Part shown: positions 8,086 through 39,515 of the stretch, one piece after another
How the letters are laid out: the number at the start of each line of letters is the position of its first letter
Numbering within the stretch: the first letter of the stretch is position 1
Virus record (IMG/VR): IMGVR_UViG_3300036851_000237
Location: 1-54,570 of that record
Length of the DNA stretch: 54,570 nt
Direction: 5' to 3' (one strand)
Source of the DNA: a virus
The notes under the pieces: model-generated
What the model saw: the letters and a program-made list of their open reading frames with translations, nothing else
Told to the model about the DNA's origin: nothing
Database searches by the model: none
Position numbers and translations under genes: made by a program

Positions 8086-8571
8086 GTGGGCCGAAAGAAG
8101 GTCATCAAAATCCCGCCGAGCCTGGAGGCCAACACCGAGCGCGCCATGCGTCTCGGGGCCGATGATTTCGCGGCGATCCCCGCCAATGTCTGGCTACCGC
8201 CGACGATCCGCGGTGAGAAGCCCCGCGTCGTCGAGGAGGTCGCCTTTGTGTCGGCACCCCCGAGCGTGCGCGAGAACATCGTGCGCATCCACGCGAATTG
8301 CGATCCCATCGGATTTCTGGTCGCGGTCGCCAACGGCCAGCCGATTGCGTGCTTTTCCGTCGGCAAGAACGGCGAGATCAACACCCACTACGAATTTCCC
8401 GACCTGGAAATGCGCGTCAAGGTCATGCGCCATCTTGCCGACCGCATCCTGCCCAAGATGTCGCTCGCACTGCGCAAGGGCCTGGGGCCGGACGAAGACG
8501 AGAGCGGCGACCGCTCGCGCTCCAAGGCCATCATCGAGCGCGCGGCCGAGCGGTCGGACGAGGGGGGCTGA
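8086..8571 (+). CDS. Possible small terminase subunit, 161 aa
   Basis: First gene of the packaging/structural operon. GTG 8086 is chosen because GGACGGAG lies seven bases upstream; ATG 8044 has no site. The N-terminus is basic (GRKKVIKIPPSLEANTERAM). A central predicted alpha/beta region and a charged helical tail follow. The position (two genes upstream of the HNH and large terminase genes) and the length suit a small terminase subunit, but I see no clear HTH, so the assignment is contextual. Confidence 0.5.
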   Translation: MGRKKVIKIPPSLEANTERAMRLGADDFAAIPANVWLPPTIRGEKPRVVEEVAFVSAPPSVRENIVRIHANCDPIGFLVAVANGQPIACFSVGKNGEINTHYEFPDLEMRVKVMRHLADRILPKMSLALRKGLGPDEDESGDRSRSKAIIERAAERSDEGG

Positions 8572-8747
8572 TGGATTGGGGACTAATTTTCGCGGCCGGG
8601 ATGTTCGCCCTCTACATCCTGCCCACCGTCGAGATCATTTTCGACAAGCCGCCGGCAGATCGGCCCTATCGCCGTCACGCGGCGTCCATCCTGCTGGCGA
8701 TGCAGTTTCTCGCCATGGCGGTCATTATCGAGCGCGCGCTGGGGTAG
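8571..8747 (+). CDS. Small two-TM membrane protein, 58 aa
   Basis: ATG 8571 overlaps the previous stop (TGATGG). Two hydrophobic helices, residues ~3-23 and ~37-55, flank a charged loop. A membrane protein between packaging genes is unusual. Its role is unknown. Confidence 0.65.
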   Translation: MDWGLIFAAGMFALYILPTVEIIFDKPPADRPYRRHAASILLAMQFLAMAVIIERALG

Positions 8748-8749
8748 CC

Positions 8750-9118
8750 ATGGGACTGCAATGGCTTTTCGAGCAATTCGCCGGCAAGTGCCACTACTGC
8801 ACGCGGCCGATGACGCTTGAGCGCCATCAGCCGAACTCGATCACACGCGATCACGCCATCCCCAAGTCGCGCGGCGGCCATGGCGTTCGCAACAACGTCG
8901 TGGCGGCCTGCTGGCGCTGCAACAACGTCAAGAGCGACATGACGGCGCGGGAGTTCATCGCCATGTGGGGCGGGCGCTGGCATGAGCTGCCCGAGGCTCG
9001 GCCGGGCCAATTCTACAATGACGGGAAGCGCTATCGGCGCCGGGTGATGCGGATCATCACGCTCGCGGATCAGAAAGCGGTGACGTTGGCCGAAGTCTGG
9101 CCCAAGGAGTCGCCATGA
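8750..9118 (+). CDS. HNH endonuclease, packaging-associated, 122 aa
   Basis: The HNH/zinc signature is clear: CHYCTRPM (residues 14-21), ITRDHAIPKSRGG (the DH is the catalytic pair), NNVVAACWRCNNVKSDMT. HNH proteins encoded next to terminase and portal genes are known to assist terminase cleavage in cos-type phages (for example HK97 gp74). That context holds here, with the large terminase 230 bases downstream. The start is two bases after the previous stop. Confidence 0.9.
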   Translation: MGLQWLFEQFAGKCHYCTRPMTLERHQPNSITRDHAIPKSRGGHGVRNNVVAACWRCNNVKSDMTAREFIAMWGGRWHELPEARPGQFYNDGKRYRRRVMRIITLADQKAVTLAEVWPKESP

Positions 9119-9348
9119 GGCTCGACAGCCGCACCAACAGCCGCGCTCATCTGTTTTGCGTGCGCGTGCGCGGCGCCAAAGAGCTGCTTGAGGGCTGTAT
9201 CTGGGCCGACGATCAGACGGGCGAATATGCCATTTACCGGACGATGGATGGCCGCCCGGTCCGCGATCATTTCGGGAATGCGGTGATCGACGTGAAAAGC
9301 GCCGAGCTGGAGCTGCGGTTTATCCATTGGGGCGAGTGGCGTGCATGA
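9115..9348 (+). CDS. Hypothetical protein, 77 aa
   Basis: ATGA overlaps with both neighbours place it firmly in the packaging operon. The product looks like a small beta-rich domain (LFCVRVRGAKELLEGCIW… AIYRTMDGRPVRD). Its role is unknown. A head or packaging cofactor would fit the position. Confidence 0.7.
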   Translation: MRLDSRTNSRAHLFCVRVRGAKELLEGCIWADDQTGEYAIYRTMDGRPVRDHFGNAVIDVKSAELELRFIHWGEWRA

Positions 9349-10850
9349 GCCGGCTCGAAAAAGCGCTCAAATTCTGGTCGAAGAATCCGGTCGAGGCGAT
9401 CAAGGACTGGTTCAACGTCACGCCCGAGGACTATCAGGCCGAAATACTGCTGGACGTTTTTGTCCGCGACAAAGACCGTATCGCCGCCAAGTCGGCGCAT
9501 GGCGTCGGCAAGACGACGGTGCTCTCTTGGGCCGGATGGCTCTATCTCAACACCCGCATCAACAGCCGCGTGGTGGCGACGGCGCCCACGCAAAGCCAGC
9601 TTTTCGACGCCCTCTGGCCCGAATACGCCAAATGGCACCAAGAGCTGCCCGACGAGCTGCGCGATCAGTGGCATATCTCGGCCGGGCACATTCGCAACAA
9701 GACGAACCCGAAGGTGTGGTTTGCGGTCGCGCGCACGTCCAACAAGCCTGAGAATCTACAGGGCTTCCATTGCCAACACATCATGGTGCAGGTCGACGAG
9801 GCTAGCGCCGTCGCCCAGCCCGTGTTCGAGGTCATCGAGGGCATTCTCTCATCCGCCGATGACCAGAAGGGTGCGAATGCCGAGGAAACCAAGCTGCTGC
9901 TGACCGGCAATCCGAACTTCACGACCGGCGAGCTGTATCACGCCTTCCACAAGAACCGCGATCTCTACACCCGCTACACGATCTCGGGCGACACGAAGCT
10001 GCCGAGCGATCCCAACGGCGGGACGATCTATCTCAGCTCCCGCGTCAAAAAGAAATACCGCGAAACCATCGCCAAGAAATACGGTGACGACTCAGCCGTC
10101 TATGACGTGCGCGTGCGCGGCGTGTTCCCGCGCCAGGACGATACGAAGGTGATCCCCTTCGCCTGGGCCGAGGCGGCGCAATATGTTCACCTACCGCTGT
10201 TCGACGACAAGGCCGACCCCATCACGCTGGTTATGGACGTGGCCCGCTTCGGCGGCGATGAAACCGTGTTGTCGGTGTTCCGGGGCGGCCATCAGATCGC
10301 CATGAAGACGTGGCCCAAGACCTCAACCGAACAATGCGCCGATATCCTCTATGACGAGCACGAATATTGGAAATCGCGCCGCATCCCGATTGAGCGCACC
10401 GTGATCGATGAGCCCGGTGTTGGTGGTGGCGTGGTGGATGCCGCACGGCGCCGCGGCCTGCCGATCACGCCATACCATGGCGGCGAAAGCCTCCAGAAGG
10501 ATCGCGACCCGGACGAGGACGTCCGCATGTTCGCCAACCGCCGCAGTCGGGACTGGTGGAGTCTTCGCCGCCGGCTGGAGCGCGGCGACATTCGGCTTTT
10601 GCAGGACGAAACGCTGATCAATCAGCTCGCATCCGTCGAGTTCTATTACAACGAAAAAGAAAAAATCCAGGTCGAATCGAAAAAGGACTTGAGGGACCGT
10701 CTGGGCGATGACGCCTCGCCAGATAGGGCCGATACCGTGGTAATGGCCCTAGCTCCGTGGTACACCTACGTCCCGGCCGGCAATAACGTTTCCGAGGATG
10801 ACGTGATCTACGGTGAGGACCGGCCGCGCCCCGAGCTGGAGTTGTGGTGA
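9345..10850 (+). CDS. terL: Terminase large subunit, 501 aa
   Basis: ATP-driven DNA packaging motor and nuclease. The start at 9345 overlaps the previous stop (ATGA). The Walker A motif is KSAHGVGKTT (residues ~49-58), and Walker B VQVDEAS lies near 149. The RNase H-like nuclease domain shows its acidic residues in LVMDVARFGGDE (~294), VIDEPG (~351) and DRADTVV (~459). The length is typical of large terminases. It is followed immediately by the portal gene. Confidence 0.95.
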   Translation: MSRLEKALKFWSKNPVEAIKDWFNVTPEDYQAEILLDVFVRDKDRIAAKSAHGVGKTTVLSWAGWLYLNTRINSRVVATAPTQSQLFDALWPEYAKWHQELPDELRDQWHISAGHIRNKTNPKVWFAVARTSNKPENLQGFHCQHIMVQVDEASAVAQPVFEVIEGILSSADDQKGANAEETKLLLTGNPNFTTGELYHAFHKNRDLYTRYTISGDTKLPSDPNGGTIYLSSRVKKKYRETIAKKYGDDSAVYDVRVRGVFPRQDDTKVIPFAWAEAAQYVHLPLFDDKADPITLVMDVARFGGDETVLSVFRGGHQIAMKTWPKTSTEQCADILYDEHEYWKSRRIPIERTVIDEPGVGGGVVDAARRRGLPITPYHGGESLQKDRDPDEDVRMFANRRSRDWWSLRRRLERGDIRLLQDETLINQLASVEFYYNEKEKIQVESKKDLRDRLGDDASPDRADTVVMALAPWYTYVPAGNNVSEDDVIYGEDRPRPELELW

Positions 10851-12247
10851 TGGCGTCCTTGCGCGAGTTCGCGTCTCTTGCTGTCGATTTCCTGCGCCCG
10901 AAGCGCGAGGCGGCACGCCCCGCCGGGCGCCCCGCATCCGTCGAGCGCGAGATCACCGAGATTGCGACCGGCGACTCGCTCGTGTCGATGGCGCCGCTAT
11001 CGCCCAACCGGGTCGAGATTCGCAACCCCGACGATCTGATCCGCCGGCACAAGTTCAAAATCTATCGCGATATGCGCTTTGACGATCAGGTCAAGCTCGC
11101 GCTCCGCTTCAAGAAAATTCTGGTCTACGGCCGCGCCTGGGACGTGAAGGCCGCCAGCAAGGACGCGCGCGATCTGGAGATCGCCGCGTTCGTGCGCGCC
11201 AACATGGAAGCGGCCGGCTTCAAAAAGCTGGTGCGCAATTCGCTGACCGCGTTCGATTTCGGGTTTTCGTGCGGCGAGATTCTTTGGGAGGTCGGCCTAT
11301 ACGAGGGCCAGCGCGCCGTGCTGTTGAAGGGCGTCAAGCACCGCGACCCGGATTCGATTCGGATCATCGTCACCAAGGGCGGCGATATCGTCGGCTTCGA
11401 ACAGTGGACGGATTTCGGGAAGAAGATCGATATCCCGCCCGAGAAGATGTTTCATTTCGCCTATCAAGCCGAGTTCGACAATCACTATGGCACGTCCGAT
11501 CTGCGCGCCTGCTACCGCAATTGGTGGGCGAAGAAGTTTTTGATTCAATTCTGGTCGGTGTTTCTGGAGCGCCTGGGCGCACCCATGACGCTTGCCAAAT
11601 ACCCGCAGGGCGCCGCCTACGAGCTGAAAGAGACGATCAAGAACATCCTGCGCGGCCTCTCGTCCAAGACCGAAGTCATGGTGCCGCAGGGCGTCGAGAT
11701 CGAAGTGATTGAGTCCACGAAGGCGGCGAAGGGCGATTTCGACGCCGCGATCAAGTATCACGACTCGGCGATTGGCCGCGCGATCCTGATGCCCGGCCTG
11801 CTGGGGGCCTCGGATCACCAGGGCCGCGGCGCGGAATCGCAGTCGCGCCTACAGCTCCGCTCGCTGTTCAAGGACGCCGACGAAAACGGCAACGAGCTGC
11901 TGGCCGAGTTGCATCGCCAGATCGTCAAACCGCTGGTCGACTACAATTTCGCCATCGAAAACGACGCCTATCCCACGGTCGTCTTGCAGGATTACGGCGA
12001 GTTCGAAGCGGTCGAGATCGCCGATGCCATCCGGCAACTCTTCAATGTCGGCGTGCTCGACATGGATCAGGCGGACGTGAACTACACCCGCAAGATTCTC
12101 GGCATGCCGATCCGCGGCGAGGATGACGACGAGGATGAGGTTTTGCGTCCGCAGCCTGCACCGCTGCCGCAGTCCGGCATGGGGGCGGGCGCTGACGGTG
12201 GTGCAGGCGGCCCCACGGGTACGGGCAACACGAAGGCAGAGAAATGA
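10850..12247 (+). CDS. Portal protein, Mu gp29-like (DUF935), 465 aa
   Basis: Forms the dodecameric DNA entry ring and head-tail vertex. The position right after terminase and the DUF935-like sequence (FGFSCGEILWEVG near residues 130-145; QLRSLFKDADENGNELLAEL, then an IVKPLVDYNF segment) support this. ATG 10850 overlaps the terminase stop; GTGs at 10844/10847 are alternatives. The tail after ~430 is Asp/Glu- then Gly/Pro-rich and looks disordered. Confidence 0.9.
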   Translation: MASLREFASLAVDFLRPKREAARPAGRPASVEREITEIATGDSLVSMAPLSPNRVEIRNPDDLIRRHKFKIYRDMRFDDQVKLALRFKKILVYGRAWDVKAASKDARDLEIAAFVRANMEAAGFKKLVRNSLTAFDFGFSCGEILWEVGLYEGQRAVLLKGVKHRDPDSIRIIVTKGGDIVGFEQWTDFGKKIDIPPEKMFHFAYQAEFDNHYGTSDLRACYRNWWAKKFLIQFWSVFLERLGAPMTLAKYPQGAAYELKETIKNILRGLSSKTEVMVPQGVEIEVIESTKAAKGDFDAAIKYHDSAIGRAILMPGLLGASDHQGRGAESQSRLQLRSLFKDADENGNELLAELHRQIVKPLVDYNFAIENDAYPTVVLQDYGEFEAVEIADAIRQLFNVGVLDMDQADVNYTRKILGMPIRGEDDDEDEVLRPQPAPLPQSGMGAGADGGAGGPTGTGNTKAEK

Positions 12248-13293
12248 CCACGATCCCGAACGTCGAGCTGTTCGCCACCGGCATCTGGAAAGGGTCCGGC
12301 GGTTCAACGGCCGTCACGGACTCCGATCTCGATCAGATCGTCGCGTCCTACACCGAACTCGGCAAGACACCGGGCTTTCAGCCGTTCTTGAAGCTCGGCC
12401 ACGCCGAAAGCCAACGGTTCTTTGGGCAGCGCAAGGGCGCTCCGAATCTCGGCTTTGTCGAAAACATCCGCCGCGCCGGCAACAAGATCGTGGGCGATTT
12501 TGTCAACGTGCCCCAAGCGCTTGTTGACCTGATTCGCAATCGGCGCTACAACTCTGTCTCTATAGAGCTGTATCCGTCCTACGAATTTGGCGGCAAACTC
12601 TATCATAACGTCCTCTACGCCGTTGCGTTGCTCGGGGCCGAGTTGCCCGCGGTGAAGGGACTCAAAGAACTAGCTTCAAGCCTCTTCGAAGATGACCCGT
12701 TCGAAGGGGGCAAAGGCGAAACCACCCTGTTCGAGGAATGTCTGATGACCACATTCACCCAGGAACAGCTCGATACGCTGGTAGGCGCGGCCCGCACTCA
12801 GGAGCGCACGGCGGTCACGACGCAGTTTCAGGAACAGGTGAACACGCTGACCCGCGAGCGTGACGAGGCGCGCGGCGAGCGCGACCGCTCGCAGGGCGCA
12901 CTCCGCACCTTCGAAAGCGACCAGCACCGCCGCGAGTGCGAGCGGATGGTCGACGAGGCGATCAAGGATGGCAAGCTGCTGCCCAAGCAGAAAGTTCAGG
13001 CTCTCGCGTTCGCGATGGCCATGCCGGGCAAGATCAAGTTCGGTGACAAGGAAGAGGATGGCGCCAAGGCGTTCGCCGACTTCCTCAAGAGCATGGGCAA
13101 GGCGGTCGATACCTCGCAGCGCTCGGCCGGCGGCGGCAACGAACGCCGCGAGTTCTCGTCTGCCGGCGATGAGGTCGATCAGAAGGCCCAGACGCTCGTC
13201 ACCGAGGGCAAGGCCAAGACCTACGCCGAGGCCCGTCAGGTGATTCTCAAGTCCGACCCGGACCTCAAGGTCCGCTACTTCAACGGGGAATGA
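12244..13293 (+). CDS. Mu I-like prohead protease with scaffold region, 349 aa
   Basis: The N-terminal ~160 residues (MTTIPNVELFATGIWKGS… and RYNSVSIELYPSYEFGG… VALLGAELPAVKGLKEL) match the Mu-like phage protease family. The C-terminal half is a long coiled coil (TRERDEARGERDRSQ…) plus a helical domain, as expected for a fused scaffold. ATGA overlap with the portal gene. An internal in-frame start at 12745 probably gives the free scaffold. Confidence 0.88.
   Translation: MTTIPNVELFATGIWKGSGGSTAVTDSDLDQIVASYTELGKTPGFQPFLKLGHAESQRFFGQRKGAPNLGFVENIRRAGNKIVGDFVNVPQALVDLIRNRRYNSVSIELYPSYEFGGKLYHNVLYAVALLGAELPAVKGLKELASSLFEDDPFEGGKGETTLFEECLMTTFTQEQLDTLVGAARTQERTAVTTQFQEQVNTLTRERDEARGERDRSQGALRTFESDQHRRECERMVDEAIKDGKLLPKQKVQALAFAMAMPGKIKFGDKEEDGAKAFADFLKSMGKAVDTSQRSAGGGNERREFSSAGDEVDQKAQTLVTEGKAKTYAEARQVILKSDPDLKVRYFNGE
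12745..13293 (+). CDS. Nested in-frame scaffold protein, 182 aa (predicted)
   Basis: Within the protease gene, ATG 12745 (MTTFTQEQLDTLV) is in frame and follows GAGGAA with a seven-base gap. It begins exactly where the protease domain ends and the coiled-coil scaffold begins. Lambda C/Nu3 and Mu I/Z use the same nested arrangement, so independent initiation is a strong inference, though not proven by sequence alone. Confidence 0.65.
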   Translation: MTTFTQEQLDTLVGAARTQERTAVTTQFQEQVNTLTRERDEARGERDRSQGALRTFESDQHRRECERMVDEAIKDGKLLPKQKVQALAFAMAMPGKIKFGDKEEDGAKAFADFLKSMGKAVDTSQRSAGGGNERREFSSAGDEVDQKAQTLVTEGKAKTYAEARQVILKSDPDLKVRYFNGE

Positions 13294-13296
13294 GCG

Positions 13297-13695
13297 ATGG
13301 GCTTCCAGAAAAGCGTTGAGTCCGAGTCGTTCATCGCGAACAGCGATCTCTCGGCCGCCAAGCACCGCATCGTCGAACTGCATTCGACCGCCGGCAAGTG
13401 CGAGATCGCGGCGCTGGGCGAGGGCTACGGTGTCCTGCAGAACGAGCCCAAGTCGGGCGAGCACGCCACGGTCGCGAAGGGCGGCATCGCGCGCATCCAG
13501 GTCGGTACCGGCGGCGTTTCCATCGGCGGCTACGTGACGGCAGCGGCCTCGGGCTACGGCCTCGCTGTCCTGTCCGGTCAGGCCGCGGTGCGCAAGGTCA
13601 TCGGCCGCGCGCTGACCGCAGCGGCGTCGGGCATGACCGCAGATGTCGATCTGAATTACCGCTTCACGTTCCAGGCGTCTGGCGGCGCCATCTAG
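13297..13695 (+). CDS. Capsid decoration-type protein (DUF2190-like), 132 aa
   Basis: Small, Gly/Ala-rich, all-beta sequence (GKCEIAALGEGYGVLQNEP… GQAAVRKVIGRALTAAASG) directly upstream of the major capsid gene. This is the position and look of DUF2190 head-decoration proteins. It starts three bases after the protease stop. Confidence 0.75.
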   Translation: MGFQKSVESESFIANSDLSAAKHRIVELHSTAGKCEIAALGEGYGVLQNEPKSGEHATVAKGGIARIQVGTGGVSIGGYVTAAASGYGLAVLSGQAAVRKVIGRALTAAASGMTADVDLNYRFTFQASGGAI

Positions 13696-13711: not shown

Positions 13712-14683
13712 ATGACCACTTCCGCCCCTGCAACTGGCCGCGAGCTGCATATCGACGTGCCTCTGTCGAATGTGGTCGTCGGGCGGCGTCCCGAGGGCTT
13801 CATCGCGGATCGCCTGCTGCCGATCACGCCGGTCGATAAGCAGTCGGACATCTACTACAAGTTCCGCTATCGCGAGTGGTTCCGCCACGAGGTCAACATC
13901 ACGCACCGCGCCCCCGGCACCGAGCCGAAGCAGGTTGCGATGACCGTCACGTCGGATACCTACTACGCCAAGAACTTCGCCCTCGCCGCCGGCTGGCCGG
14001 TCGAGGACGTGGTGAACGCCGATGCGGTTCTCCAGTGGGCCGAGTCCAACGCGCTGTTCCTGATGGACCGGCTGATGATGGACTACGAGATGCGCATCGC
14101 CACCCTGGCGGTGAACACGTCCAACGTCCGCACGGTCGCGACGATCAGCTCGGCGTGGTCCGATCCGGTCAACTCGCGCCCGCTCGACGATCTCTTCACC
14201 TGGAAGGAAAACTTCCGCCGCGCGACCGGCAAGCGCCCGAACACGCTGATCCTGCCCGAACAGGTGATGACCTTCCTCAATCGCAACGACCAAATCCGCG
14301 ACATCCTGTTCGGTGATCGCGGCGGCCTTGCGACCGCCGAACAGATCGCCGCCATCGTCGGCGTGCGTCAGGTGCTCGTCCCGGAATCGCTGGTCAACAC
14401 CGCGACCGAGATGGCCACCACGCTCGGCTCGGGCACGCTCTCGGATGTCTGGGGTCCGCACATCTACTTCGCCAGCATCGACACGCTCCAGGGCATGATG
14501 ACCGATACGTGGCTCAATGCCTTCCGCTGGACCTCGCCCCTCTTCAACACGCCGCTGGCGGTGATCCGTCACCCCTTCGACACGAAGAAGAAGCGCTATG
14601 ACATCGAAGTGTCCTACTACCAGGACGAAAAGGTCGTCTCGTCCGACCTCGCGCTCCGCTTGATGGACGTGGTTTCGCTCTAA
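13712..14683 (+). CDS. Major capsid protein, Mu-like, 323 aa
   Basis: The size, its place after protease and decoration genes, and the sequence (IDVPLSNVVVGRRPEGFIADRLLP; FTWKENFRRATGKRPNTLILP) fit Mu-type/HK97-fold major capsid proteins. No delta-domain is needed because the scaffold is separate. A strong ribosome site (GGGAG) precedes ATG 13712, and a Rho-independent terminator follows (14706-14734), as often seen after highly expressed capsid genes. Confidence 0.92.
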   Translation: MTTSAPATGRELHIDVPLSNVVVGRRPEGFIADRLLPITPVDKQSDIYYKFRYREWFRHEVNITHRAPGTEPKQVAMTVTSDTYYAKNFALAAGWPVEDVVNADAVLQWAESNALFLMDRLMMDYEMRIATLAVNTSNVRTVATISSAWSDPVNSRPLDDLFTWKENFRRATGKRPNTLILPEQVMTFLNRNDQIRDILFGDRGGLATAEQIAAIVGVRQVLVPESLVNTATEMATTLGSGTLSDVWGPHIYFASIDTLQGMMTDTWLNAFRWTSPLFNTPLAVIRHPFDTKKKRYDIEVSYYQDEKVVSSDLALRLMDVVSL

Positions 14684-14705: not shown

Positions 14706-14734
14706 AGGGCCGGTTCGAAAGGACCGGCCCTTTT
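14706..14734 (+). terminator. Rho-independent terminator after major capsid gene
   Basis: A perfect 9-bp stem AGGGCCGGT/ACCGGCCCT with loop TCGAAAGG is followed by TTTT. It lies 22 bases after the capsid stop codon and should reduce read-through into the glycosyltransferase gene, setting a high capsid-to-downstream ratio. Confidence 0.92.
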
Positions 14735-14860
14735 GATTCCGATTTTATTTTGCGACTCGTCCTATGTTGCTGTTACGCTCGGGGCGCCCGCGGGTGCCGG
14801 CGGGGGATATCAAAGTCCTCCCCCCGACTTGCCCTCGCCGGCTTCATACCTGGGGGTTTA
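14735..14860 (+). promoter_or_regulatory. Leader and possible promoter of the three-domain enzyme gene
   Basis: An AT-richer stretch follows the terminator (GATTTTATTTTGCGA). A possible promoter is TTGCGA (about 14750-14755) with TACGCT 18 bases further on. The leader ends with GGGGGT a few bases before ATG 14861. The promoter call is weak. A fresh start of transcription here would be logical after a terminator. Confidence 0.4.
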
Positions 14861-17779
14861 ATGGAAATCGTGATTGTTGCCGGCGGCATGCCGTTCGGCC
14901 CTGATACGTTGGATCATTTTTCGCTGGGCGGTTCCGAAACAGCGGCCCAGCAGATCGCCAAGGCGCTCAAGGCGCGCGATCATCTCGTCACCGTCTTTTG
15001 CAATCTCCCGCCGGCCGGTCGGCCCGACTTCCATCAGTCGGGAGCCTTGGGCTCGGACAAGGTGCGCTACGTCCAGATGGAGGCTTACGAGCCCTTCATC
15101 ACGTCGACGGAAGTTGACCTTCTGATCGTCAGCCGCGATCCGACCAAGATCAACCTGCCGCACCAAGCCCGCAAGGCGGTCCTCTGGATGCACGACCTCG
15201 CCACCCATGAGTTCATGGGGGGCGCACTCCCTCATATGGCGTGGTGCTTCGATGAAATCTGGGCCGTCTCCGAGTTCCACCGGCAGCAGATTCATCAGGT
15301 GACGGGCTACCCGCTCCGCTGCATCCGCGCCACGCGCAACGGCATCGTCAAGGTCGACGTGCTCGAAACCGAGCGCCTGGACAATCAACTGCTGTACGCC
15401 GCGCGCCCCGAGCGCGGGCTTGAGCATCTGGTGCGGCCGGACGGCATCATGTCGCGCCTGCCCGAGTTCAACCTCAAAGTCTGCATGTACGCCAATTTCC
15501 CGGAGCACATGCGGGGCTACTACACCGCGCTCAATGAATGGGCCAGCCGCCTGCCGAATGTCGAGATTCTGGGGTCAAAGACGCAGACCGAAATGCGGCA
15601 GTTGATTCATGACTCCGCGGCCTATGTCTACCCGACCAGCTTTGAGGAAACGAGCTGCATCCTCACTCGCGAGTGCATCGAGCAAAAGACCCCCTTCATC
15701 ACGACGCGGGCGGGCGCGCTGATCGACAGCCTGGGCGATTGCGGTGTGTACGTCGATGGCCTGCCAGAGCTGGGCAAGACCAATGACGAGTTCTATCAAG
15801 CCTTCGCCGACACGGTGAAGTCGATCCTCGGCAGCGAAGGGGCGATGCGCGAGATCGTCGCCAACATGAATGCGCGCGACGATCTCTATTGGGATCAGGT
15901 CGCCGCGGAGTGGGAGAGCTGGGCAACGGCCGCCGAGCCGCAGCTCTACTCGAAAATCCGCTCGATGATCGAAGACTCCGACATCGTGCCGGCGATTGCG
16001 CTGATGGGTTCGGCCTTCGAAGGCGCCTGGACGCTGGGCGTAGAAGCCTTGGGCCAGCAGCTTGAAAAGCTCTATCCCTACCTGCACGGCAAGGAGTCGT
16101 TCGCCGACTATTACGAGCGGTATTTCAAGCGTGAGGACGAAAAGGGCGCGCGCCACAAGCCCGACATGGATGGCAATAGCCGGTTCGAAGCCATCGCGCG
16201 CGAGATCGCCGCACTGCCGGACGGCTCGGCGATCCTCGATTACGGCTGCGCCGAGGGCGTGATCATCCTGGGGCTCGCGAAGCGCTTCCCGAACAAGTCT
16301 TTCTGCGGGGTGGATTTCGCGGCCAGCAACATCGAGCTGTGCCGGAAGTACGCCGAGGAAGATGGACTCAAGAACGTCTATTTCGCCGTGGGCAGCAGCG
16401 ACGATTGGCCGCCCGAGGCGATGCCGCCGGTCAACGGGTATTTCGATGCGGCGATTTGCTCGGAAGTCCTGGAGCACGTCGAGAAGCCTTGGGAGCTGGC
16501 GACGTTCGTGGAGTCGAAGGTCACGGCGGGCGGCCGGGTCATCATCACCGTGCCGGCGGGGCCGTGGGAAGCGACCGGGCTCTACGACAAGGATCAGTGG
16601 TTCTGGCGCGCGCATATCTGGCACATCAACAAGTGGATGCTGCGCAAGATGTTCGCCGACAAGGCGACCTGCAACATGTCGAGTCTGGCCAACGGGCATT
16701 TCCAGGACATGCGCGCTATCGGCCATACCGTCTTTGCCTACGAGGCCGATCACAAGCCGGTGCATGCGGTCGATCCGCTCGAAAAGGCCGAAGCCCATCG
16801 CGCGCGCCACACGCTCGGGGCCGCGATCATCGCCATGAACTCGCAGGCGACGATCCTCAAGACGCTGGACTCAATTGGCCGCGTGTGCAGCCAGATCAAC
16901 GTCGCTCTCGGACCGTCGACCGATCAGACAGAGCAACTGACCAAGACCTGGGCAAAAGAACACCCGTGGTGCGAGGTCAGCATCATCCCGGTTCCGAAGA
17001 TCGAGCCGGGCGCGTTCGGCTTCGATGACGCCCGCAACCGCAGCATCGCCGGGCTCGATACTGATTGGATTCTCTGGATCGACACGGACGAATACTTGTC
17101 GCTGCCCGAGAACGTCCTCAAATATCTTCGCTCGTCTGCGGTCGAATCTTACGCGGTTCATCAGCATCACTTTGCCTGCGATCCCCGCGGCGCCCCTCCC
17201 CAGATCGACAAGCCGGCGCGGATTTTCCGCAATCATCACACCTTCAAGTTCTATGGGAAGGTGCATGAGCACGCCGAGGTTTCGTTTAACGGCGGTCCTG
17301 GGTTCTGCCACCTGATCATGGACGCCGACATAGGACATATCGGCTACGAGAACGAGGCGGTGCGCCGGCTGCGCTTCAACCGGAATTTCCCGCTGCTGGA
17401 ATGGGATCGTCAGGTCTACCCCGAGCGCAAGCTGGGCCATTATTTGTGGATGCGCGACATCATTCATAGGATGCGCTACTATATCGAGATCGGGCAGGTG
17501 CCGGTGGCACGCCAACTTGCACAGGACGCTATCGACTTTTACGAAGGCCACTGGCAAGACCTCGATGCGTTCGGCAGCGCCGCCGGGCAGTCGCTCGGCT
17601 ACCTGACCGAGGCGCGGGCGTTCCTGGGGCAGGGGCTTGAGCTGCAAACCGTCCTGCGGTCCAACGGCCGCGAGATGGCGATCACAGGGCGGTTCCATAC
17701 GGTAGATGAGTTGACGCGGCTGCTGGCGAAGGTGTTACAGCCCGAGATCGACCGGAACAACAGCAAGTATTTGCGGTAG
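14861..17779 (+). CDS. Three-domain glycosyltransferase-methyltransferase-glycosyltransferase, 972 aa
   Basis: Residues 1-~370 are a GT-B (GT4-like) glycosyltransferase: an N-terminal Rossmann start MEIVIVAGGMPFG with LGGSETAAQQIAKAL, and the donor-site segment SFEETSCILTRECIEQKTPFI near 265. Residues ~440-620 are a class I SAM methyltransferase (ILDYGCAEGVIILGLA, motif I; FDAAICSEVLEHVEKPWE). Residues ~645-900 are a GT2-like, GT-A-fold domain with DWILWIDTDEYL as the DxD metal site. The C-terminal ~70 residues are helical. The start at 14861 follows GGGGGT; the frame runs open upstream to 14750 without support. Embedded between capsid and head-completion genes, it may build a methylated glycan on virion proteins; the target is inference. 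Confidence 0.85.
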   Translation: MEIVIVAGGMPFGPDTLDHFSLGGSETAAQQIAKALKARDHLVTVFCNLPPAGRPDFHQSGALGSDKVRYVQMEAYEPFITSTEVDLLIVSRDPTKINLPHQARKAVLWMHDLATHEFMGGALPHMAWCFDEIWAVSEFHRQQIHQVTGYPLRCIRATRNGIVKVDVLETERLDNQLLYAARPERGLEHLVRPDGIMSRLPEFNLKVCMYANFPEHMRGYYTALNEWASRLPNVEILGSKTQTEMRQLIHDSAAYVYPTSFEETSCILTRECIEQKTPFITTRAGALIDSLGDCGVYVDGLPELGKTNDEFYQAFADTVKSILGSEGAMREIVANMNARDDLYWDQVAAEWESWATAAEPQLYSKIRSMIEDSDIVPAIALMGSAFEGAWTLGVEALGQQLEKLYPYLHGKESFADYYERYFKREDEKGARHKPDMDGNSRFEAIAREIAALPDGSAILDYGCAEGVIILGLAKRFPNKSFCGVDFAASNIELCRKYAEEDGLKNVYFAVGSSDDWPPEAMPPVNGYFDAAICSEVLEHVEKPWELATFVESKVTAGGRVIITVPAGPWEATGLYDKDQWFWRAHIWHINKWMLRKMFADKATCNMSSLANGHFQDMRAIGHTVFAYEADHKPVHAVDPLEKAEAHRARHTLGAAIIAMNSQATILKTLDSIGRVCSQINVALGPSTDQTEQLTKTWAKEHPWCEVSIIPVPKIEPGAFGFDDARNRSIAGLDTDWILWIDTDEYLSLPENVLKYLRSSAVESYAVHQHHFACDPRGAPPQIDKPARIFRNHHTFKFYGKVHEHAEVSFNGGPGFCHLIMDADIGHIGYENEAVRRLRFNRNFPLLEWDRQVYPERKLGHYLWMRDIIHRMRYYIEIGQVPVARQLAQDAIDFYEGHWQDLDAFGSAAGQSLGYLTEARAFLGQGLELQTVLRSNGREMAITGRFHTVDELTRLLAKVLQPEIDRNNSKYLR

Positions 17780-17783
17780 AGAC

Positions 17784-18275
17784 ATGTCCTACGCGACCAT
17801 CGATAACGTCATCAACCGCTACAAGCCCATCCAGACGATGATCGGGGTGGGCTCGTATCAGGTGACGTCTGCCGAGGTGGCGTCCAGCTTCATCGCGGAT
17901 GCCGAGTCGTTCATCGATGCCTATCTCGCCGCCCGCTACGTGGTGCCGGTCCCTGCCACGCCTCTCGTCACCCAGCTCGCCTCCGATCTCGCCGTCTTCA
18001 ACATGGCGGTCGAGAAACTGCCGGAAGTGCCGGACTTCATGCAGGCGCGCTATGACCGCTGCCTGAAAACCCTGGAGATGCTGCGCGACGGCAAGATGTT
18101 CTTGTCGAGCGCCACCGTCACCACGTCGGGCGACCAAGAGGCGTGGTCGACGACGCAAGACTATCATCCCGTGTTCTCGCCGGTCCTCGATCCCATCGAC
18201 CAAGCGGCCGACATCGACCGGGTTGAAGCCGATCAGGATGCGCGCTCCGATGACGGCATTCCCGAGCTGACCTGA
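17784..18275 (+). CDS. Head-completion/adaptor protein, DUF1320 (Mu gp36-like), 163 aa
   Basis: Starts MSYATIDNVINRY, with FIADAESFIDAYLAARYVVP and the helical pattern TQLASDLAVFNMAVEK typical of the DUF1320 family. These are thought to act as head-tail adaptors under the portal. It lies four bases after the big enzyme gene and overlaps the next start (TGATGG). Confidence 0.85.
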   Translation: MSYATIDNVINRYKPIQTMIGVGSYQVTSAEVASSFIADAESFIDAYLAARYVVPVPATPLVTQLASDLAVFNMAVEKLPEVPDFMQARYDRCLKTLEMLRDGKMFLSSATVTTSGDQEAWSTTQDYHPVFSPVLDPIDQAADIDRVEADQDARSDDGIPELT

Positions 18276-21051: not shown

Positions 21052-24000
21052 TGGCGATTTTTGACGTCGGCATCATCATCACGGCGCTCAATCGAGCCGC
21101 CGCGCCGCTGCGCGACGTCAACCGCCAGCTCGTCACCATGGAGCGCAACGCCCAGCGCGCGCACCGCGGCATGCGCGCCATTGACGTGGTGCTCGCCGGC
21201 ATCGCCACCGGCACCGCCACGGCGCTGGTCAAGAAGCTCGTCGAGGTCGCGGCCGAGACTGAGAATTTGCGCCTGCGCTTCGGCGTGCTGTTCCGCGACG
21301 TCGACCGCGGCGTCAGCGTCTTCAAGCAGCTCCAGCAGGCTTTCGAGCGCTCGCCCATCGACATCAACGCCACCGCCGATGCGTTCGTGCGCCTCAAATC
21401 CGCCGGCATCGACGCGGCGTTTGAGTCCACCAAAGCGCTCACGGATGCCGTGGTCGCGTTCGGCGGCTCGACGAACGAGTTCAAGCGCGCCAGCCTCGCC
21501 TTGGGACAGATCGCCGGCAAGGGCACGCTGCAGATGGAAGAGTTGCGGCAGCAGTTGGGCGAGGCCGTGCCCACCGCGGCGCGCATTCTCGCCGACGAAC
21601 TCGGCATCTCGACCGCCAAGCTGTTCCAGCAAATCTCCCGGGGCCAAATCGACGCGACCACCGCGCTTGAGAATCTGCGCCGCGGCTTCGAAAAGAACTT
21701 CGGCGGCATCACGGACACCCTCGGCCGCGGCCTGACGGGCACGATGCAGCGCATCCGCAACGTCGTGACGCAGACCATCGACCGCATTTTCAACGATACG
21801 AGCCTGGGTACCAAGCTGGCCATCGTCTTCGACCGCATCGCGGATGCGATCAAGCGCTGGGGCGAGAGCATCACGGAAGCGGACATTGACCGCTTCTTTG
21901 TGATGCTGACGAATTTCGCGCGCGTGGCCGAGGGCGTGTTGCGCGCACTCTATGACATCGGTCGCGCGCTCCTGGCGGTCGCCAATGCGGTTGCGGCCGT
22001 CATCGGCGTGACCGGCGCCGAAGTCCTGACCTATGGCATCGTCGGCCTGCTGTTTTTTGGCAAGGCCGGGTTCATCATCGGCACTGCCATCGGCGTTGCG
22101 GTCAAGGTGGCCGATGCGTTCAATGGCGCCGTCGTCAAAATGGGCGGCGCGGTCAAGACCCTGTTGGATCGTTTCGGCGCGGCGGCCGAGTTCGGCCTCA
22201 TCGGCGGGCTGCTGCTGGGGCCGCAGGGCTTCATCATCGCTACCGTCGTCGCCTACGTGCTTGACGGCCTGCTATCGGCGATCCGCGACTTTGTGCTGAC
22301 GGCGGCGAAGATCGTTGGCGCATCCGATTTCGCGAAGGATGTCGAAGACCTGTTCGGCAAGTCGGGCTCGTCGCTCCTGAAAAAGTCGCTCGACGATATT
22401 CACGGCGCGATTGGCGGGCTCTGGAGTGAAAGCGCGAATCGGGGGTCGCTGACCGATAGCCTGATCGGGACGCCCGAAGAGATCGCCGAGCGCAAGAAGT
22501 CCATCGCCGACACGATCAAGGCTGTCCGCGAACAGCAGACCAAGATCGAACTCAGCGTTGCCGGCGAGAACGCGGCCACCCAGCTCGGGCGGCTGGAGGA
22601 TCGCATTCAGCAAACACTGGCCGGGTCGATCTCGCTGCCGTTCGAGTCCACGGTCGAGAATTTCCGCAACGATCTTAAGGAGATCGACAATCTCATTGCG
22701 GCGGAACGACGCCGGCTCGCGGATGCGATCTCGAATTTCGGCGAAACCGATCCGATCTTTGCGAAACTTGCGGCGGGCGTCGCCGACCTCGAAGCCATGC
22801 GGGAGGCTGCGCAAGGGCTGGTCGCCGCCTTCCGAGCCTCGGAACTCAAAAAGTTTGCCGACGAATTGCAGCGCGATCTTGGCCGCGTGCAAGATCAGCT
22901 CACCACCATCAACCACGACCTCATCGGCGACGAGGCCGGCGAGGCGATTGCGCGGATCAACCAGCAGTTTAACGAGCGCGGGCGCGAGCTGCAAAAGCAG
23001 GTCGACCAAGCCGCCCGGCTTGTCGCGCTCGACGGGTCGCGCCAGAAGATTCTCGATAGCGCGAACGCGGCCGTTGCCGACAACAACCGCCTGCGCGAGA
23101 AGTCCATCGAGATTCAGAAGCGGCTCAATGATCTGATCGTCGAACGCAAGGGGCTTGAGTCCAAGGCCGCCGTCCTGCAGTCCGATGCCGAGCTGCGCGA
23201 TCTGTCGCGGCGCTTCCGAGAGGGCTTCGCCGCGGCGTTCTCCAGCGACTTTGTTGACGAGGCCGAGCGGCTGCAAGACGAGTTTGGCGCCAAGATCATC
23301 CAGCTCAATTTGGATATCAACAAGCTGTTGCAGGCTCGGGAAAAGGCGAGCGAGACAGACAAGCGCCTCATCGACGAACAGATCGGTGCCATCGAACGGC
23401 TGCGCGAGAAATATGGCGAGCTGCGCGGGCGCGTGGATGCGTTCGCGCTCGTGACCGAAGAGACGATGCGCAAGGTCGGGCAGGCGATCACGGACTCGCT
23501 TGTCGACGCCATCGACGGGTTTGTTTCCGGCACCAAGTCGGCGAAAGATGTGCTCAATGACTTCTACCGCACGGCCAACAAGCTGGCGATTGAGTACCTG
23601 TTGAACCTCGCCAAGATCGAATTGCAGCAGAAGGCAATCGGGACGGCGGGCAGCAGTGCCGGCAGCGGGGGCGGCGGGGCGGGCTTCTTCGGCATGCTTG
23701 CCGGCCTGTTTAGCGGCGGCGCCGGCAGCGGCGCTGCGGCGGGCTCGGCGACCGGCATTGATATGAGCGCTGGCTTTCTGGGCGCGGTCGCGCGCGGCGG
23801 CGCGTTCCGCGGCCGTGTCAAGCCGTTCGCCAGTGGCGGCATCGTCAACGGTCCCATGATGTTCGGGCTGATGGGCGAGGCCGGCGAGGAAGCCATCATG
23901 CCGCTCGGGCGCGACCGGCGCGGCCGGCTGGGCGTGCGCGGCGGCGGCGGCGATCAGTTCCATATCAACATCACAGCGGTCGACGGGCCGGGCGTGCGCG

Positions 24001-38462: not shown

Positions 38463-39515
38463 TCAGGCCGATTTGACAAGCTGGAGCACGGGGGCGCCGC
38501 CCGACAGATAGCGGTCGAGCGTGGTGTAGGCGTTCATGCTGAGATTGCGCGTGCGGGCGATGTAGGCGCGGCCCATCTTGACCTTTTCGCCAAACGAATG
38601 GCCCATGATCACCGCCGCTTCGACTTCGGTGCAGCGCGCCTCCTGCAACAGCGTGTCGAGCGTGCCGCGCAGATCGTGGAAATGCAGATCATCGTCAATG
38701 CCGGCGTCGAGCATCGCCTGCCCGAGCTGCTTGGAGATGTTGGCTTGCGTCCAGGCGATCCCGGTTTCGGTCGTGAGCAAAGGATCATCCTTGCCGCCGC
38801 GCGGCAGGCTCGCCATCAATTCGCGGAGCGGCGTCAGCGCGAACAAGGGCAGATGCACCACGGCGCCGGTCTTGCGCGCCGTTTTCTGCGGCTTGTAGAC
38901 CAGCCATTCGCCATCGAACTGCCCCCAGGTCAGGGCGCACAGATCGCCGACACGGCAACCCGTGAATTTGGCGAAGCGCAGCAGCCGCCCAAATTCCGGC
39001 TTCGCTTCGGCCAGCAGCCGATCAAACAGCGCATCGGCCCAGATGCACCCGGATCGGCTCGCCGCCTTGGCATCGCGCAGATGCTTGAGGCCGATGGCGC
39101 GGTTGTCCTCGATATGACCCTGATCGTCGGCCCAGGCGAGCAAGGCGCGCAGATGCGCCATCATCATGTCGGCGCGCGCGGGCGTGGCCTGGAATTTATT
39201 GCGCAGCTCGTAGAACTCGGCGCGCGCGCTCTTGGCCTCCAGCTCGGCGCGCGACATCCAGCCCAGCTCATCCTCGATGATCGTCAGATATTGGCGCTTC
39301 TGATAGCGGGTGTTTTCAGCGAGGCGGTTGAACTCGGGGCTTTTCACATAGCCCTCGATGAGCGTCCGCAGAAAGGCGCGCTGGGTGGCAACATACTGGC
39401 GTTGCCGCGCCGCGGCCCGGTCGTAGTGGTAGGCCTTAACGTCCCCGTTCGCCAGCGTCCGGCGGACGGTCTTCACGGCGCTGGTGGCGCGCGTGCCATT
39501 TGCGTTTGCGCTCAT
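38463..39515 (-). CDS. int: Tyrosine-family integrase, 350 aa
   Basis: Site-specific recombinase. Catalytic residues are visible: R188 (GCRVGDLCALTW), H280 and R283 (HDLRG), H306 (MGHSF) and the nucleophile probably Y318 (GRAYIARTR). The N-terminal ~160 residues carry arm-binding and core-binding (SAM-like) domains. It starts at 39515 with GGGAAG upstream and overlaps the Xis-like gene by 80 bases. Its presence makes the phage temperate. Confidence 0.95.
   Translation of the reverse strand: MSANANGTRATSAVKTVRRTLANGDVKAYHYDRAAARQRQYVATQRAFLRTLIEGYVKSPEFNRLAENTRYQKRQYLTIIEDELGWMSRAELEAKSARAEFYELRNKFQATPARADMMMAHLRALLAWADDQGHIEDNRAIGLKHLRDAKAASRSGCIWADALFDRLLAEAKPEFGRLLRFAKFTGCRVGDLCALTWGQFDGEWLVYKPQKTARKTGAVVHLPLFALTPLRELMASLPRGGKDDPLLTTETGIAWTQANISKQLGQAMLDAGIDDDLHFHDLRGTLDTLLQEARCTEVEAAVIMGHSFGEKVKMGRAYIARTRNLSMNAYTTLDRYLSGGAPVLQLVKSA

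Follow-up and report, generated by a model that had tools for sequence, protein, structure and literature searches.

Glycosylation of phage virions is known from a few mycobacteriophages, in which it is an accessory trait. There, the enzymes Che8 gp110 and Corndog gp38 glycosylate capsid and tail-tube proteins (Freeman et al. 2023, as cited in PMC12363180), and that paper does not describe them as fusions of two glycosyltransferases (GTs) with a methyltransferase. Enzymes that combine two GTs and a methyltransferase are already known from a chlorovirus and from an S-layer system. A064R of chlorovirus PBCV-1 is a soluble polypeptide of 638 amino acids (aa) with two rhamnosyltransferases and an O-methyltransferase, which makes the methylated end of the glycan on the major capsid protein of its own virus by extending an existing N-glycan (PMC9614988). 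WsaE of Geobacillus, a soluble trifunctional S-layer enzyme, carries a 2-O-methyltransferase and two rhamnosyltransferases, and its methylation ends the chain (PMC2943079). In podovirus ctKR88 (MW202524, 3147-7307), a GT2-TPR-GT1 fusion lies two genes past the capsid gene, with further GT genes also following the capsid gene.

Here we describe a fusion of two GTs and a methyltransferase encoded in a 54,570-base stretch of viral DNA, called the window below. Its relevant features are the following.

9327-10850, + strand, terminase large subunit
10844-12247, + strand, portal protein (Portal_Mu)
12244-13293, + strand, head maturation protease
13297-13695, + strand, scaffold-like protein
13712-14683, + strand, major capsid (major head) protein, 323 aa, no cysteine (PHROG 1005, 3.5e-55)
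14706-14731, + strand, terminator-like hairpin after the capsid gene, 11 pairs
14796-14842, + strand, hairpin whose loop, CTCCCCCC (14818-14825), can pair with the Shine-Dalgarno of the fusion gene; conserved in kind in relatives
14852-14856, + strand, Shine-Dalgarno GGGGG of the fusion gene
14861-17779, + strand, GT-B/methyltransferase/GT-A fusion enzyme, single frame of 972 aa plus stop
14861-15940, + strand, GT-B domain (GT4-type), aa ~1-360, with LGGSE (22-26), N160, RPERG (182-186) and EX7E (263/271)
16181-16795, + strand, class I SAM methyltransferase domain, aa ~441-645, with DYGCAEG (460-466), D485 and EVLEH (535-539)
16793-17470, + strand, GT-A domain (GT2, SunS/GmaR-like), aa ~645-870, with GFDDARN (720-726), WIDTDE (739-744) and GKVHEHAE (799-806)
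17354-17776, + strand, C-terminal segment, helical with a small alpha/beta part, aa ~832-972 (secondary structure of the model)
17784-18275, + strand, Mu Gp36-type head-tail adaptor, the next gene after the fusion
18275, 19305 and 21051, starts of the neck, tube and tape measure genes
up to 29857, tail assembly and tail proteins
38463-39515, - strand, tyrosine integrase

The original prediction had placed the enzyme between a capsid gene ending in a terminator and a head-completion gene, and the hairpin at 14706-14731 and the Gp36-type adaptor at 17784 bear this out. Translation was taken to start at ATG 14861, because of the Shine-Dalgarno at 14852-14856 and because homologues begin at the same residue. 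Given the tyrosine integrase, the virus may be temperate. ARAGORN also called a tRNA-Phe at 22100-22199, within the tape measure gene; the call has no Rfam support and is probably false.

That a GT-B enzyme, a methyltransferase and a GT-A enzyme are joined in one 972-residue protein, as had been predicted, was supported by Pfam, profile and fold matches. The methyltransferase scored 52.3 bits against PF13847 (cut-off, 27), while the window protein alone stayed below the cut-offs for its GT-B (PF13439, 22.8 bits versus 28.5) and GT-A domains (PF00535, 19.7 bits versus 23.3). Five fusion homologues added to this picture: all five matched Glyco_transf_4 (best 4e-9, several at 1e-8 or better) and three of them Glycos_transf_2. 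A profile made with these homologues matched SunS (8e-14), GmaR (2e-9) and many methyltransferases among PDB sequences. The AlphaFold model, computed from a 34-row alignment, was confident (mean pLDDT, 90.5; pTM, 0.90), and Foldseek searches of the PDB returned relatives for all three parts: SunS/ThuS first for GT-A (SunS, 8e-15), 3mgg for the methyltransferase, and PimA/HepE/GtfA-type enzymes for GT-B, whose matches also included BshA, tetrahydrobiopterin glucosyltransferases and the phage glycosyltransferase structure HY126. No membrane segment was found in the protein. The fusion is thus a GT4-type GT-B enzyme, a class I SAM methyltransferase and a GT2/SunS-like GT-A enzyme in one protein.

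The catalytic residues, whose absence would by its own account have refuted the prediction, are kept in the 34 homologues with the exception of the first GT-A acidic motif. Conserved at more than 90% to invariant were LGGSE, N160, RPERG and EX7E in GT-B; G462, C463, G466, D485 and E538-H539 in the methyltransferase; and F721, R725-N726, W739, D741, D743-E744, G799 and HEHxE in GT-A, where WxDxDE, FxxxRN and GxxHEHxE are invariant in the alignment. GT4-type GT-B enzymes are recognized by the GT-B fold, a GGS loop and the R..(K/R)G and EX7E motifs, and the fusion has these motifs in a PimA/HepE fold. Motif I (DYGCxxG), an acidic residue after beta 2 and a score above the family cut-off define class I SAM methyltransferases; the Pfam match, the motifs and the 3mgg fold all place the middle domain there. 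Of the marks of a GT2-type GT-A enzyme, the DxD, ARN and VHE motifs and the GT-A fold are present; the first acidic, nucleotide-binding motif is to be taken apart from these, since it is absent in the window and its close subclade (ALGPSTD), with the D retained in many distant members. Donor binding by the GT-A domain of the window clade may therefore be unusual. The protein does not reach the SunS equivalog TIGR04195 (31.6 bits; cut-off, 350).

Among described enzymes, A064R is the closest analogue. Both are single soluble viral polypeptides in which a SAM methyltransferase is joined to two GT domains, but the order is GT, GT, methyltransferase in A064R versus GT-B, methyltransferase, GT-A here, and the chlorovirus and its capsid fold are unrelated to those of the window. 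No A064R entry appeared among the PDB sequence matches of the fusion at E <0.01 and <0.001, and the analogy is functional only, the fusion being tied to its major capsid protein by genetic linkage. WsaE is likewise soluble and holds a methyltransferase and two GTs in one protein; unlike the fusion, it is cellular, has its methyltransferase at the N terminus and builds a lipid-linked glycan that is moved to protein later. The ctKR88 protein also fuses GT-A and GT-B, in a parallel placement in an unrelated podovirus that we count in favor of a role on the virion, but belongs with an SU10-family capsid, contains no methyltransferase and has the reverse GT order. SunS/ThuS and GmaR, which gave the best profile and fold matches to the GT-A domain, are its closest relatives of solved structure.

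First scans of viral contigs with the single window protein gave no match, because the short patterns used were too specific; a methyltransferase-only query together with alignments succeeded. The methyltransferase query yielded four IMG/VR loci with full-length fusions of 48-56% identity in the same genomic slot, which argues that the fusion is no chance product. Forty-five IMG/VR loci were then chosen by a capsid-only profile, blind to the presence of the fusion. The fusion lay downstream of the capsid gene in 42 of them, as one open frame in every complete locus, and the remaining three contigs stop 0.1, 1.6 and 2.3 kb past the capsid gene. In the opposite direction, a profile built from 34 fusion sequences hit 409 IMG/VR stretches; of the best 80, 75 were new loci. 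The capsid gene was found upstream in 70 of the 75; the other five contigs start less than 600 nt ahead of the fusion. Some loci are near-copies of each other and some contigs occur in both sets, 80 being left once identical capsids were removed. Spacing is fixed within the close clade: the fusion follows the capsid gene by 90-224 nt, and gp36 follows the fusion by 3-19 nt. No fusion was found among the cultured phages or plasmids searched. The earlier statement that no well-described phage enzyme has this architecture therefore holds for those cultured phages, but the fusion is common in uncultured ones, and A064R is a viral analogue (PMC9614988).

In the set of 80, capsid and GT-domain pairwise identities correlate (Spearman, 0.79-0.81), and the methyltransferase diverges faster. 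In the capsid tree, 61 proteins from fusion-bearing phages and six from fusion-less ones fell on opposite sides of one branch (support, 100/98); the six (CRP-6, RSP, Kovu, Jenst, ValentiniPuff and L002) are picks from a list of cultured relatives plus one contig. These comparisons indicate that the fusion is co-inherited with the capsid gene, and a single gain is the simplest reading, short of proof. Swapping of the methyltransferase domain was considered and rejected: the methyltransferase and capsid trees are largely concordant and differ only in the placement of locus L030 and the window. The window methyltransferase is 57-68% identical to those of loci that stand no nearer to it in their capsids than other loci do, and capsid data reject the methyltransferase grouping (P = 0.0009, for a group named after looking). 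Faster divergence of this domain is the simpler reading.

SunS- and GmaR-like GT-A domains have peptides or proteins as substrates, and the substrates of UbiG/WbdD-like methyltransferases are small molecules or sugars. We consider it probable that the fusion is a soluble cytosolic enzyme that decorates a virion protein, the capsid protein being the likeliest, with a short glycan that is O-methylated. Late in infection, one GT domain would attach a host-derived sugar to this protein, whose likeliest gene lies just upstream; the second would extend the sugar chain; and the middle domain would O-methylate a sugar, possibly capping the chain, giving a particle with a short methylated glycan. Because of the protein and peptide substrates of its relatives, the GT-A domain may be the one that starts the chain, with GT-B extending it, by analogy with SunS, GmaR, A064R (PMC9614988) and WsaE (PMC2943079). 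A glycan on the phage's own capsid or tail proteins had been proposed from the outset; capsid linkage in both search directions strengthens that proposal, and the glycan itself is predicted.

By gene adjacency the capsid cannot be told apart from acceptors in the tail or elsewhere. The tail tube, the adaptor or, in distant members, a large protein between fusion and gp36 could instead be modified, which we regard as unlikely. The tight junction with gp36 in the close clade would suit such an acceptor, as would the tail-tube glycosylation reported in mycobacteriophages (PMC12363180); yet the capsid gene is the single gene that every long-enough locus has upstream of the fusion, and gp36 lies 3-5 kb away in several distant loci of the fusion-selected set. 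Proteins of 600-1070 aa beside the fusion in distant loci could be acceptors there, but are absent from the window clade. These large proteins (L100 13492-16701, L104 7571-10267, L097 14123-16312, L092 11682-13868 and L052 12131-13942) belong to no clear family and are possible head fibers or glycan acceptors.

With the capsid protein as the favored acceptor, two candidates for the site of attachment were examined and set aside. SunS glycosylates cysteine, and the capsid proteins of the window and of 32 of 80 relatives have none, so S-glycosylation of capsid cysteines was rejected as a general mechanism. N88, E98, R128, N138, R272, Y303 and E306 are capsid residues distinctive of fusion-bearing phages, but as acceptor sites they were unpersuasive, only six fusion-less sequences having been compared.

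Some loci carry further glycan genes, which speak for the preferred reading. In L060, an extra GT-B/methyltransferase gene and a GDP-mannose 4,6-dehydratase gene (3.8e-113) at 8152-11012, between capsid gene and fusion, form a small glycan cassette; L041 and L046 have an additional GT-B gene in that interval, and L061 has a short-chain dehydrogenase gene after the fusion. L046 (13251-13931) and L050 (11652-12335) also have radical SAM genes downstream of the fusion within the virion operon. Dehydratase-family matches were limited to 2 of 50 fusion-bearing records, and therefore most such phages would use host sugar nucleotides. No sugar-nucleotide genes were recognized in the window phage, from which dependence on those of the host would follow.

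The original prediction had alternatively allowed for alteration of the lysogen's surface. The nearest cellular match, L004 (a Candidatus Adiutrix metagenome-assembled genome), has separate GT-A-TPR and GT-B genes adjoining MptE-like and Maf genes. Maf and MptE-like genes together with GTs are a set typical of flagellin glycosylation islands, and we also count this match in favor of protein glycosylation on the virion. Both GT domains thus have relatives in a bacterial island of this type, and the window encodes an integrase; both points would be in keeping with an enzyme that alters flagellin or the host's surface glycan so as to mask receptors or exclude superinfection. We nevertheless judge such a role improbable: the enzyme has no membrane segment, its gene sits inside the late virion operon, and every complete locus has the fusion, while integrase matches came from just 2 (the window and L097) of 50 fusion-bearing records, many of these 50 being partial. 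This part of the prediction was accordingly weakened.

Glycosylation of modified bases in phage DNA would fit the use of glycosyltransferases on DNA by phages and the presence of HY126 among the GT-B fold matches. It appears very improbable, as the gene is tied to the capsid and not to replication genes, the GT-A domain is SunS/GmaR-like, and thymidylate synthase-type genes were found in 2 of 50 fusion-bearing records; Tet/JBP was matched in 0 of 50, a weak point because the positive control was likewise silent. Surface conversion of the lysogen is disfavored, as is DNA modification. The GT-B relatives PimA, BshA and tetrahydrobiopterin glucosyltransferases would agree with synthesis of a free glycoside or with some host target, e.g., a defense protein, the position then reflecting late timing only. 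Retention beside the capsid gene down to ~25% capsid identity is left unexplained by that account, to which we give little credence, and modification of the virion, most likely the capsid, remains the preferred reading.

Upstream of the fusion, the window hairpin places its loop CTCCCCCC opposite the Shine-Dalgarno GGGGG. In most close relatives, a long hairpin stands between the terminator and the start codon; its stem sequence differs among loci, and its loop (GTGCCCC, GTGCCCT or GATGCCCC) lies 41-46 nt ahead of the start codon and is complementary to the Shine-Dalgarno of its own locus (GGGGCAC, AGGGCAC or GGGGCATC). Such pairs were seen at L018 4158-4242, L030 2570-2654, L032 8017-8101, L033 8026-8110 and L038 3227-3311, among others, and at 14796-14856 in the window. 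Complementarity at single loci is by itself mostly not significant. Across loci, own-pairing scored 301 against a permuted mean of 264.6, and 0 of 20,000 permutations were as high, although the permutation corrects only partly for relatedness; an 11-locus subset gave P = 0.00015. At the level of sequence, the loop thus covaries with the Shine-Dalgarno of the fusion gene, and the hairpin, for which Rfam holds no matching family, may tune translation of the enzyme as a possible new translation-control element. In L018, L022, L025 and L026, a TATAAT-like motif directly after the capsid terminator and ahead of the hairpin suggests a separate promoter for the fusion gene.

Phage virion glycosylation as such was known before (PMC12363180, citing Freeman et al. 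2023); what is new is the domain order and the fixed capsid-gene neighbor in a large uncultured group without any member among the cultured phages searched. We tentatively propose, as a reading that falls a little short of probable, that a methylated capsid glycan is an obligate core feature of a large uncultured lineage of tailed phages, made by a single GT-methyltransferase-GT enzyme that was gained once with the capsid module, shows no loss and has its translation set by a hairpin masking the Shine-Dalgarno, in convergence with the chlorovirus system. As the enzyme is single and compact, the question is directly testable with one enzyme gene and one capsid gene. The fusion is kept beside the capsid gene in every long-enough locus while the capsid diverges to ~25% identity. 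Should the enzyme act on the virion, glycosylation of the particle would rank as a core trait of long standing in a widespread phage group rather than as an ornament, and would bear on adsorption, on the stability of the particle and on how it is recognized.
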